A stretch of 64,000 nucleotides of DNA from an uncultured Clostridia bacterium (GCA_946498095.1 CAMMMX010000012.1:1-64000); one strand, 5' to 3'. Numbered from the stretch's first letter, positions 40,865 through 44,120 are shown. Notes: generated from the sequence alone by a model not told the origin. Translations and numbers: made by a program.

Positions 40865-40893
40865 TTGCGAAGCGGGCGAATTTGTAGTAAAAT
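40865..40893 (+). promoter_or_regulatory. Promoter of the sensory hydrogenase cassette
   Basis: -35 TTGCGA (40865-40870), 17-bp spacer, -10 TAAAAT (40888-40893), 65 bases before the first gene. Confidence 0.7.
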
Positions 40894-40957
40894 AAAAGTT
40901 ATCAGACAGAAGGCGTCCAGTCCGGACGACTTCTTGCTCAAAAGGAGGACGCAGGAT

Positions 40958-41206
40958 ATGATCGATATCAGCGTTTGTGTGGGGAGTTCCTGCCACATCA
41001 AGGGCTCACACGCAGTGATTACAGCAGTAGGGGCGCTCATAGACGAATATCGTTTGACAGACAAGGTGAAGCTGAAAGCGTCGTTTTGTCAAGGCAGATG
41101 CATTGACGGCGTTTGTGTTACGGTTGGGGAGACGGTGATTACTGGCGTGAACGCGGACAATGTCAGAGAGAAATTCGAGACGGAGATCATGCCGTTGTTG
41201 CCATAA
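40958..41206 (+). CDS. Thioredoxin-like [2Fe-2S] ferredoxin (NuoE/HymA type)
   Basis: 82 aa, a stand-alone thioredoxin-fold ferredoxin. The four cluster ligands are C7-x4-C12 and C44-x3-C48 (VCVGSSC, FCQGRC), the NuoE spacing. NuoE-type subunits pass electrons between NAD(P)H modules and hydrogenases; here it is encoded 21 bases before the sensory hydrogenase and likely donates to or accepts from it. AAGGAGG precedes ATG 40958. First gene of the cassette. Confidence 0.9.
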   Translation: MIDISVCVGSSCHIKGSHAVITAVGALIDEYRLTDKVKLKASFCQGRCIDGVCVTVGETVITGVNADNVREKFETEIMPLLP

Positions 41207-41227
41207 ATATGTAAAGGAGGGTTACCG

Positions 41228-42928
41228 GTGAACATACTAGAGCTGAAGGAAAGCAATTGCCAAAACTGTTATAAATGTATCCGTGGGTGCCACATTAAGG
41301 CGATTGAGTTCAAGAATAACCACGCCAATGTCATTGGGACGGAGTGTATCCTTTGTGGCGAATGCATTATCAATTGTCCGCAGGATGCAAAATATATTAA
41401 CGGTCAGCTGCCGCGGGTGCAGGAACTGGTTCGTAGCGGCCGTAAAGTTTATGCGACGATCGCGCCGTCTTGGAGCGGTTATTTCGCCTCTAGGGACTTT
41501 GAAAAGCTGTCCGGGGCGCTGAAAACGCTCGGCTTTGCTGGTGTCGAAGAAACTGCTATCGGTGCAAGCGAGGTAAGTGGAGCGTATAGCCGTCTGGTTG
41601 AGGAAGGGAAAATGGACAATATCATTATGACGGCATGCAGTTCTGTTACCATGCTGATCCAACGGCATTTTCCCAAGCTGATACCGTATCTGGCGCCTGT
41701 GTTGTCTCCGATGATGGCGCACGCAAAGCTGATGAAGGAAACCTATGGCGATATTGACGTGGTGTTTATCGGCCCTTGCTTTTCGAAAATATTCGAGGGG
41801 ACCGACATGCTGTCCGGACGGTATGTGGACGGTGTACTTACTTTTTCAGAGCTCAGTGATTGGATGGACGATGCACAGATTCAGCTCTCTCTGCCAGACA
41901 ATGAGGCGGTCGGGGTATCCAATCCGGTAGCCCGCTATTATCCAACGCCTGGAGGAATCCTGAAAACGATGGAGGGGACCGATTTCGGCGATTACCATAA
42001 AGTTGTAGTCGACGGTTTGGATCGTTGTATCGATCTGTTTCGTACCATTTCCGAAGATGGTCTGACCGGATTGCTGGTGGAAGCAAACATCTGCGCAGGA
42101 AGCTGTACAGGCGGCCCGGTCATGCGCCTTGGGGAACGGAAACTCATCCTTGCACAGGAGCAAATCAGCGGGAAAAAGCAAAGACAGGACGAACGGCCTG
42201 CCCAAACGGCGCAGGTGCACAGTTCCTATCCGCGGAAGTTTGTCAATTGCACGGTGAAAAACGATATGCCGTCGGAAGAGGAGATCCGCAGAATTCTTGC
42301 AAAGACGGGAAAGTTTACAAAGGAGCATGAGCTTAACTGCGGCAGCTGTGGTTACAATAGCTGCCGGGATAAAGCGATCGCCGTCTACCAGGGTAAGGCG
42401 GACGTGAATATGTGTCTGCCTTATTTCCGTAACCGGGCGGAAAGCATCTCCAATACCATTCTTGCCAATTCCCCTAACGCAATTTTCGCGCTGGACAGCG
42501 AGCTTCTGGTGCAGGATTTGAATATCACTGCGGAGGAGATGTTCCGCATCAACAAAAGTGACTGTGCGGGGCTGCCGGCAGAGATGTACATTGACACGGA
42601 TATGATCCGACACATGCAGGATGCCGGCGAAAGGGTCCGGTCAGCGCAGACTACCTACGCGGATGCCGGCATTACCGCGGAACAGACGGTGGTCTATGTG
42701 CCGGAACAGAATATCTATGTGGTCTTCATCAAGGATATTACCTCCGATGTGGAGAACGAGAAGGAACTGGAAAAAATCAGGCAGGATACGATTGAAACGA
42801 CACAAAAGGTCATCGACAAGCAGATGCGCGTCGCACAGGAGATTGCCAGTCTGCTGGGTGAAACAACGGCGGAAACCAAGGTAGCTTTGACAAAGCTGAA
42901 AAAATCGCTGTCTGAGACGGTCGTCTGA
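41228..42928 (+). CDS. Sensory [FeFe]-hydrogenase with PAS domain (HydS-like, group C)
   Basis: 566 aa, cytoplasmic. Two [4Fe-4S] ferredoxin motifs (C11/14/17/21 and C40/43/46/50), then the H-cluster domain: L1 MTACSSV (C137), L2 IGPCFSK (C184), L3 NICAGSC (C289, C293), all four cluster-binding Cys kept. The second Cys of the TSCCP motif, the proton donor of catalytic hydrogenases, is Ser, as expected for a sensor. A four-Cys Fes4-type cluster domain (about 371-397; CGSCGYNSC) and a PAS domain (about 405-510) follow, then a helical tail. GTG start seven bases after AAGGAGG. Lies between the [2Fe-2S] protein and a SpoIIE-type phosphatase. Confidence 0.92.
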   Translation: MNILELKESNCQNCYKCIRGCHIKAIEFKNNHANVIGTECILCGECIINCPQDAKYINGQLPRVQELVRSGRKVYATIAPSWSGYFASRDFEKLSGALKTLGFAGVEETAIGASEVSGAYSRLVEEGKMDNIIMTACSSVTMLIQRHFPKLIPYLAPVLSPMMAHAKLMKETYGDIDVVFIGPCFSKIFEGTDMLSGRYVDGVLTFSELSDWMDDAQIQLSLPDNEAVGVSNPVARYYPTPGGILKTMEGTDFGDYHKVVVDGLDRCIDLFRTISEDGLTGLLVEANICAGSCTGGPVMRLGERKLILAQEQISGKKQRQDERPAQTAQVHSSYPRKFVNCTVKNDMPSEEEIRRILAKTGKFTKEHELNCGSCGYNSCRDKAIAVYQGKADVNMCLPYFRNRAESISNTILANSPNAIFALDSELLVQDLNITAEEMFRINKSDCAGLPAEMYIDTDMIRHMQDAGERVRSAQTTYADAGITAEQTVVYVPEQNIYVVFIKDITSDVENEKELEKIRQDTIETTQKVIDKQMRVAQEIASLLGETTAETKVALTKLKKSLSETVV

Positions 42929-42944
42929 GATGGAGAGAGAGGGA

Positions 42945-44120
42945 GTGAGTACCATTCGCCTGTATGTTGACTTTGCGGCACAGAGCCTCAACAAGTATGG
43001 AGAGGAGTTGTGCGGCGATAAGGTAGAGTTCGTACGAGGGGAGGATTTCTCCTTAATGGTACTGGCCGATGGTCTGGGTAGTGGTGTAAAAGCGAATATT
43101 CTGTCTACATTGACGGCGAAAATCATCGCGACGATGCTGTCGGGCGGCGCAACGTTGCAGGAAGCCATCGAGACGATCGCCTGTACGCTGCCGGTCTGTT
43201 CCTGGCGTGGGATTGCCTATTCAACCTTTACGGTTATCCATATCAGAGACAACAACGTTGTCAGTATCGCAGAGTTTGATAATCCGTTTTTGCTGTATAT
43301 GAAAAAGGGCGTCATAACTGATATCAACCGGCAGGAGACGGTCATTGACGATAAAAAAATCTATCTCAGCGAAATCGCTTGCGAGGCGGACGACTGTCTG
43401 ATCAGTTTTTCGGACGGCGTTGTCCACGCAGGCATTGGAAGCCTGATGGATCTTGGCTGGCAGTATGACAATATTGTCAAGCATATCAAGGATACGGTGG
43501 ATTACCGGATGTCGCCCCAAGTCATCACGCAGAAAATTTTGGATGCCGTCAGCGTCCTGTATATGGGGAAGTGTGGGGATGATTCGACGGTATGTACGCT
43601 GAAGCTGAGGAAAAATTGTCCCGCGGTGATTATGGTTGGACCGCCAGCGGACAGCGCCCAGGATCAGGCTGTCGTTGATCGCTTGCTGAGTTGTGAAGGT
43701 CTGAAGGTGGTTTGTGGCGGCACAACATCGCAGATTGTTTCCCGTTTGACCGGTAGGGAGATTGAGGTGGCGCTGAATTATGCAGATCCCAGCGTGCCGC
43801 CGACCGCGGTGATAGAAGGCATCGATTTGGTGACGGAAGGCGTTCTGACCCTTGGAAAAACAGTGGACATCGTGAAACGCTACTTATCCGGTGAGGAGGG
43901 GAGCACGCAATTGTTGCGTCAGGCCGATGGCGCTTCCCGGCTGGCGAAGGTGTTGCTTGAGGACAGCACGCAGGTGACGTTTATGGTAGGTCGAGCGCTC
44001 AACCCGGCGCATCAAAACCCTTCCCTGCCGCTGTCGTTGAGTCTGAAGCTGGGTATCATTAATGAACTGGCGGATTTATTGCGTCAAAGCGGGAAAAGAG
44101 TGCAGGTCGACTTGTACTGA
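42945..44120 (+). CDS. SpoIIE-type serine phosphatase of the sensory hydrogenase cassette
   Basis: 391 aa. The N-terminal half (about 1-220) is a PPM phosphatase with metal-binding acidic motifs VLADGLGSGVKAN, LISFSDGVVHA and CGDDSTVCTL. The C-terminal half (about 225-391) contains VVCGGTTSQIVSRLTGRE and a helical end, conserved in these loci but without known activity. GTG 42945 lies seven bases after GGAGAG; an ATG at 42930, one base after the hydrogenase stop, is the alternative. As the third gene of the cassette it is the likely output, removing phosphate from an unknown protein such as an anti-sigma-factor antagonist. Confidence 0.88.
   Translation: MSTIRLYVDFAAQSLNKYGEELCGDKVEFVRGEDFSLMVLADGLGSGVKANILSTLTAKIIATMLSGGATLQEAIETIACTLPVCSWRGIAYSTFTVIHIRDNNVVSIAEFDNPFLLYMKKGVITDINRQETVIDDKKIYLSEIACEADDCLISFSDGVVHAGIGSLMDLGWQYDNIVKHIKDTVDYRMSPQVITQKILDAVSVLYMGKCGDDSTVCTLKLRKNCPAVIMVGPPADSAQDQAVVDRLLSCEGLKVVCGGTTSQIVSRLTGREIEVALNYADPSVPPTAVIEGIDLVTEGVLTLGKTVDIVKRYLSGEEGSTQLLRQADGASRLAKVLLEDSTQVTFMVGRALNPAHQNPSLPLSLSLKLGIINELADLLRQSGKRVQVDLY

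Follow-up and report, generated by a model that had tools for sequence, protein, structure and literature searches.

The window analysed here, a 64,000 nucleotide stretch of DNA from an uncultured Clostridia bacterium (GCA_946498095.1, CAMMMX010000012.1:1-64000), carries between positions 40958 and 44120 three open reading frames (ORFs) placed head to tail on the plus strand, as an initial annotation of the region had described. We identify them as hfsA, hfsB (hydS) and hfsC. With a confidence somewhat above even, we read this hfsABC cassette as a group C3 HydS-HfsC module which couples H2 or redox state to dephosphorylation, and in which the sensory hydrogenase HydS restrains the phosphatase HfsC at low H2. 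Judged by its features, the cassette is a typical representative of a widespread signalling class which has already been named (group C3, with hfsABC as part of hfsABCD): it has the H-cluster cysteines, the N-terminal pair of [4Fe-4S] clusters, the C-terminal Cx2Cx4Cx16C cluster motif (as in PMC8163306), the PAS domain, which is a criterion of group C and is absent in group D, and the adjacent phosphatase gene. In HydDB, group C3 comprises the "phosphatase-linked" [FeFe]-hydrogenases (PMC5037454). New here is the evidence from the HydS C-terminal tail on how sensor and phosphatase may touch.

The succession hfsA-hfsB-hfsC is more than chance. The initial annotation had made its reading depend on the co-occurrence of the three genes in related genomes, and they are found in this order in 68 of the 73 loci with upstream context; HfsC matches are present in 76 of the 247 genomes of the taxonomic order to which the window genome belongs. 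Across 77 homologues, no 20-residue block of HydS is better conserved than residues 541-560 (0.86), and the two blocks of the tail 521-560 have a mean top-residue frequency of 0.77 and 0.86, as against 0.58 for the whole protein. A profile of this tail gave 78 matches in the 247 genomes, all within HydS-sized ORFs. For seventy-six of them a detected HfsC follows at a distance of -11 to 76 bp, and for the remaining two a degenerate copy of HfsC. Genomes having a group D locus but lacking any HfsC-like gene gave no match to the tail. Since all 78 matches directly precede an HfsC-like gene, the tail probably docks on the HfsC phosphatase.

The phosphatase has a matching peculiarity. Its assignment to the PPM family, proposed initially, is borne out by the SpoIIE match (PF07228), and D30, D47, D162, D217 and D218, which we take to be the metal-binding sites, are invariant in 47/47 homologues. 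The AlphaFold2 monomer model (predicted local distance difference test, pLDDT, 88.6; Foldseek match to SpoIIE 5mqh, E 3e-14) begins at beta-1, the first strand of the PPM fold, and has no linker; the most conserved 17-mer of the protein (0.96) consists of the Asp-Gly loop and helix alpha1. In RsbU alpha1/alpha2 is the switch element and coiled-coil linkers activate the PPM dimers, an equivalent mechanism being predicted for the PAS-linked RsbP (PMC12143880). As HfsC lacks a linker of its own and has a conserved switch helix, the HydS tail could be the missing linker, supplied in trans.

In the mechanism which we propose, HydS would be a split receptor of the RsbP type serving as the input for HfsC. 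H2, or the redox state imposed by H2, would set the state of the PAS domain via the hydrogenase and iron-sulphur domains, and the near-invariant helical tail after the PAS domain would dock on the switch helix of HfsC. HydS and HfsA would restrain HfsC at low H2 and release it at high H2, for which we lean on Thermoanaerobacterium genetics, and the freed HfsC would dephosphorylate a regulator and so raise hydrogenase and adhE expression. The data show the gene order, the domains, the metal-site residues, the linkage of tail and phosphatase gene and the new C-terminal domain of HfsC; H2 as the ligand, the docking, the sign of control and the role of HfsA are what we infer from them and from published work.

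In Thermoanaerobacterium, deletion of hfsA or hfsB raises adhE 2-3 fold and increases ethanol, which deletion of hfsC or hfsD does not; the hfsC and hfsD deletions share a lactate phenotype, and deletion of the whole operon comes without ethanol gain (PMC5707799). In Ruminococcus albus, which has a group C enzyme with a phosphatase, co-culture with an H2 consumer lowers expression of the operon of this enzyme 111-fold (PMC6776011). Restraint by HfsA and HfsB until H2 is high is favoured because it agrees with the adhE changes as well as with the expression seen in R. albus. The opposite sign, by which H2-bound HydS would stimulate dephosphorylation as in RsbT/RsbU and loss of HydS would lower it, is less likely, yet it deserves weight: it agrees with the linker-driven activation of RsbU, and of RsbP as predicted, and the pairing of tail and switch fits either sign. 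If HydS only activated HfsC, however, the hfsB and hfsC deletions should look alike, whereas their end products are opposite and adhE differs, with the caveat that some hfs deletions altered hfsD expression (PMC5707799).

Several points weigh against the proposed mechanism as a whole. In Thermoanaerobacterium thermosaccharolyticum from which hfsABCD has been deleted, overexpressed hfsD brings high ethanol back although HfsC is absent (PMC11837493), for which reason HydS may act partly without the phosphatase. The lactate phenotype of the hfsC deletion is left unexplained by the mechanism. The docking is drawn from conservation and gene order, the predicted structure being that of a monomer, and physical linkage of two genes also holds their features together. 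Finally, three divergent operons (L167-L169) carry HydS-HfsC pairs without detectable HfsA.

The domains of HydS are those announced in the initial annotation, with two ferredoxin clusters (Fer4 motifs), a Fes4-type cluster (PF04060) and a PAS domain. All eight cysteines of the ferredoxin motifs, those of the PF04060 cluster (C371-x2-C374-x4-C379-x16-C396) and the H-cluster cysteines C137, C184, C289 and C293, which had been named correctly, are invariant in the 77 homologues. The motif register was set by an ungapped alignment with 8a6t_A. As C137 falls on the H-cluster ligand of the TSCCP motif (CpI C300), the proton-relay position (CpI C299) is occupied by Ala136 and not, as had been proposed, by Ser; Ser138 is at the Pro position. 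A136, G182, Y238 and N287 are found at the positions of CpI C299, M353, F417 and M497, N287 by motif register. The relay position is Cys in 52/77 homologues and Ala in 16/77. Because Cys is present in 52, loss of the relay Cys does not define the class, nor does the residue at this position offer a basis for inferring low catalysis class-wide; in addition, the A131C variant of Thermotoga maritima HydS (TmHydS) is less active, not more (PMC10055695). The phosphatase-coupled sensory hydrogenase of the initial annotation thus keeps the published reading of the class and the co-occurrence of the genes on its side, and loses the Ser-for-Cys argument and the single promoter.

That HydS mainly serves catalysis, as a ferredoxin-linked hydrogenase subunit, with HfsC tuning the neighbouring hydrogenase directly, seems quite improbable. 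A hydrogenase gene lies directly downstream of the cassette in 45 of the 76 loci and divergently upstream in 4, the relay Cys is frequent, as said above, and TmHydS turns over H2 slowly (PMC10055695), all of which would suit a catalytic role. In the window genome, however, hfsD is missing and no hydrogenase gene flanks the cassette; none of the four Fe_hyd_lg_C genes is beside hfsC, the three other [FeFe]-hydrogenases being hydA of hydABC (contig C29), a group B enzyme (contig C15) and a group D HydS. Furthermore A136, G182 and Y238 correspond to A131, G177 and Y223, the substitutions of TmHydS, and the PAS domain and tail would be of no catalytic use.

As to the substrate, HfsC could take part in partner switching. 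It would then remove the phosphate which an RsbW-like kinase has placed on a STAS-type or other protein; the DRTGG/HATPase_c_2 pair next to the group D HydS of the window genome would be an example. We consider this unlikely. HfsC does most closely resemble SpoIIE and RsbX, an RsbW-like HATPase adjoins group D HydS divergently from hydABC (L011), and the HATPase is present in 47/76 HfsC genomes versus 70/171 (odds ratio 2.3, p 0.004, uncorrected for phylogeny). Against this, 29 of the 76 HfsC genomes (38%) are without the HATPase, and the only STAS protein of the window genome is SpoIIAA, beside SpoIIAB and SigF; a dedicated STAS substrate for HfsC was rejected accordingly. The HATPase locus itself (L011:2811-11593, contig C29) consists of a hydABC-type operon divergent from genes for DRTGG, RsbW-like HATPase, group D HydS, DRTGG-like and PHP proteins, and a locus of this type, judged by the HATPase, occurs in 117/247 genomes.

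Even less probable, to the point of being a marginal candidate, is a dedicated kinase opposing HfsC encoded by the APH/RIO-like kinase gene beside adhE. It is suggested by about 20 loci with (rex-)adhE-kinase-hfsA-hfsB-hfsC-hydrogenase on one strand, and by a kinase gene after adhE in the window genome (L145:5044-8598, contig C9), the product of which is 74% identical to that of distant Clostridia. Presence of kinase and HfsC are however not associated in 61 genomes (6/21 vs 9/40, p 0.76), the gene tracks adhE rather than hfs, and its product may be a small-molecule kinase. The pair of adhE and kinase genes recurs elsewhere, sometimes with rex and hfs genes, and at over a dozen loci rex is located upstream of hfs genes, where its product may be either a regulator or a substrate. 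Two Treponema metagenome-assembled genomes (L107, L122) have adhE-kinase-hfs clusters, which suggests horizontal spread or else a binning error.

Beyond the phosphatase domain, the C-terminal half of HfsC is, according to its model, a Rossmann-like domain which is conserved, has no known relative and almost never stands alone. It carries the motifs GPP, CGGTTS, PP, GxDLVTEG and GRAxNPAHQNP; E303, N358 and H361 are invariant and C262 is near-invariant in the 47 homologues. It gave no Pfam or NCBIfam match and no PDB match at E <= 0.001, and a known enzyme was discarded as explanation, the matches to UbiX, methylglyoxal synthase and phosphoheptose isomerase being weak and none convincing. A neighbourhood survey had been suggested in the initial annotation. 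A profile of this half matches in 110 of 391 genomes of the class and, hits at contig ends aside, the domain is fused to the phosphatase in all cases except one short ORF (L166), so that a free-standing family was also rejected. The gaps which the initial annotation had pointed out, i.e. the target, this C-terminal half and the small ferredoxin, were fairly named, and they are narrowed here, not closed.

The small protein HfsA had been called a NuoE-like [2Fe-2S] protein. It does match PF01257 (thioredoxin-like [2Fe-2S]), over positions 67-139 of the 145 of the profile, so that only the C-terminal part of the NuoE/HydC fold is represented; the cysteines C7-x4-C12 and C44-x3-C48 are kept. HfsA would be a [2Fe-2S] partner most likely acting on the same side as HydS. 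In L166 (7882-8896) the short ORF with the isolated HfsC C-terminal domain directly follows an HfsA-like gene, and neither a hydrogenase nor a phosphatase domain accompanies it. This may point to a joint function of HfsA and the domain; the three pairs without HfsA mentioned above speak against such cooperation. The hfsA gene is tandemly duplicated in 15/73 loci (L091, L094, L095, L099, L119, L120 and others).

The most novel lead of the analysis concerns relatives of the window genome and not the window genome itself. In L071, L072, L075, L111 and L190-L192 hfsC is followed by a gene for a TnpB/Cas12-like protein of 480-530 amino acids (e.g. L071:10190-11713, L111:10170-11687, L192:5513-7054; also L194-L207). 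Strong matches to its profile occur in 14 of the 391 class genomes, Ruminiclostridium among them, and only in genomes with HfsC; all 14 genes are downstream of hfsC on the same strand, 11 adjacent and 3 at up to 3.4 kb, behind an adhE gene. The RuvC triad is lost, the first Asp being replaced in 17/17, the Glu in 12/17 and the third-position Asp in 13/17, while the canonical TnpB references (L208, L210) both have D, E, D. Directly 3' of the stop codon is a structured RNA with hairpins P1 and P3 and a GCUGC/GCAGC pseudoknot, which is paired in 17/17 sequences, with double changes in three; the covariation of P1, P3 and pseudoknot was reached in 0/500 shuffles. The RNA model found 21 copies in 1.45 Mb, each beside a TnpB-like gene, including L075, which was outside the model-building set. 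No Rfam family matched this RNA, and it is absent near the window cassette. A guide function is no more than putative, because no target match above background was found within about 10 kb of the locus and terminators frequently begin a short way from the scaffold. The searched literature, which did not include the main TldR paper, yielded no description of a TnpB-like gene linked to a hydrogenase. Tentatively, and with somewhat less than even confidence, we suggest that a branch of the H2-sensor/phosphatase operon captured a nuclease-dead TnpB/Cas12-like RNA-dependent DNA- or RNA-binding protein as effector of the pathway, an H2-responsive relative of TldR. HfsC-like genes with degenerate motifs, possibly pseudophosphatases, are located beside the TnpB-like gene (L190:5096-6127-, L191:4759-5781, L192:4842-5513); in genomes G120 and G245 they are second copies, a normal hfs cassette being present elsewhere.

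The features of the window cassette are listed in the table below. The hydS start codon is a GTG at 41228, and hfsC starts two bases past the hfsB stop codon. The initial annotation had placed all three genes behind one sigma-A promoter. The site concerned is a weak match and one of several at 9/12, another being found 78 bp upstream, and the consensus scan returned 8 sites in the region versus 3.8 +/- 2.0 expected by chance; a confident sigma-A promoter was consequently rejected. On the other strand the cassette is flanked by what we take, from their translations, to be trpS and a pyridoxal phosphate-dependent aminotransferase gene, and hfsC is followed by presumable yicC-, remA-, gmk- and priA-like genes. 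The trpS gene is upstream of the cassette in close relatives too.

Table. Genes, domains and signals of the hfsABC cassette (positions in the window).
Feature	Position	Strand	Remarks
Sigma-A promoter-like site TTGCGA-17-TAAAAT (weak)	40865..40893	+	consensus scan, 9/12 match
Shine-Dalgarno AGGAGG of hfsA	40943..40948	+	read from sequence
hfsA	40958..41206	+	82 amino acid thioredoxin-like [2Fe-2S] protein; PF01257 E 1.1e-5
hfsB/hydS	41228..42928	+	566 amino acid sensory [FeFe]-hydrogenase, group C3 by features; PF02906 E 1e-38, PF04060, PAS, Fer4
HydS, two [4Fe-4S] ferredoxin motifs, residues 11-50	41258..41377	+	C11,14,17,21; C40,43,46,50
HydS, H-cluster domain, residues 73-297	41444..42118	+	PF02906
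HydS, C-terminal FeS domain Cx2Cx4Cx16C, residues 369-398	42332..42421	+	PF04060 E 2.7e-10
HydS, PAS domain, residues 410-476	42455..42655	+	PF00989 E 5.8e-5, 23.5 bits vs cut-off 22.6
HydS, C-terminal tail KVIDKQMRVAQEIASLLGETTAETKVALTKLKKS, residues 521-560	42788..42907	+	proposed phosphatase-docking element; conservation and gene linkage
hfsC	42930..44120	+	396 amino acid SpoIIE-type PPM phosphatase with new C-terminal domain; PF07228 E 3e-12
HfsC, PPM catalytic domain, residues 11-228	42960..43613	+	D30, D47, D162, D217, D218 invariant; without N-terminal regulatory domain or linker
HfsC, C-terminal Rossmann-like domain, residues 229-396	43614..44117	+	AlphaFold2 pLDDT 90.9

H2 governs the H2, acetate or ethanol output of anaerobes in gut, rumen and biofuel fermenters, and the searched literature did not yield a group C sensor for which an output has been proven. 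The HydS tail, the linker-free HfsC and the new C-terminal domain are named and testable segments for phosphatase signalling. If the TnpB-like gene and its RNA do belong to this signalling pathway, metabolic control would have recruited and domesticated a CRISPR-related protein. The value for follow-up lies in the tail, the C-terminal domain and the TnpB-like variant.

Compared with known systems, the cassette shares with group C3 (PMC5037454) the PAS-bearing sensory H-domain, the N-terminal [4Fe-4S] clusters and the adjacent Ser/Thr phosphatase gene, and among the features compared no defining difference was found. The hfsABCD operon of Thermoanaerobacterium saccharolyticum (PMC5707799, PMC11837493) has the same hfsA-hfsB-hfsC order and the same described kinds of protein, HfsC being termed a serine phosphatase in Thermoanaerobacterium; in the window, in contrast, no hfsD/hydA2 is downstream, the next gene is yicC-like and hydrogenases are on contigs C15 (group B) and C29 (hydABC). 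TmHydS, of group C (PMC10055695), has the same Ala, Gly and Tyr at the positions of C299, M353 and F417 and differs at that of M497, where it has Ser267 in place of Asn287. For the relatives only, the TldR nuclease-dead TnpB repressors (PMC13418256) show the same lost RuvC residues, fixed non-transposon neighbours and a structured RNA at the 3' end; the TnpB-like gene of the relatives differs by its H2-sensor neighbours, by having no guide or target identified and by a terminator hairpin which in many cases begins no more than about 15 nt from the scaffold. With respect to RsbP and RsbU (PMC12143880), the HydS-HfsC pair has input and output on two polypeptides, an extra C-terminal domain in HfsC and no dedicated STAS substrate gene, whereas the PPM fold, the input by PAS domain plus helix and the conserved alpha1/alpha2 switch are common to both.

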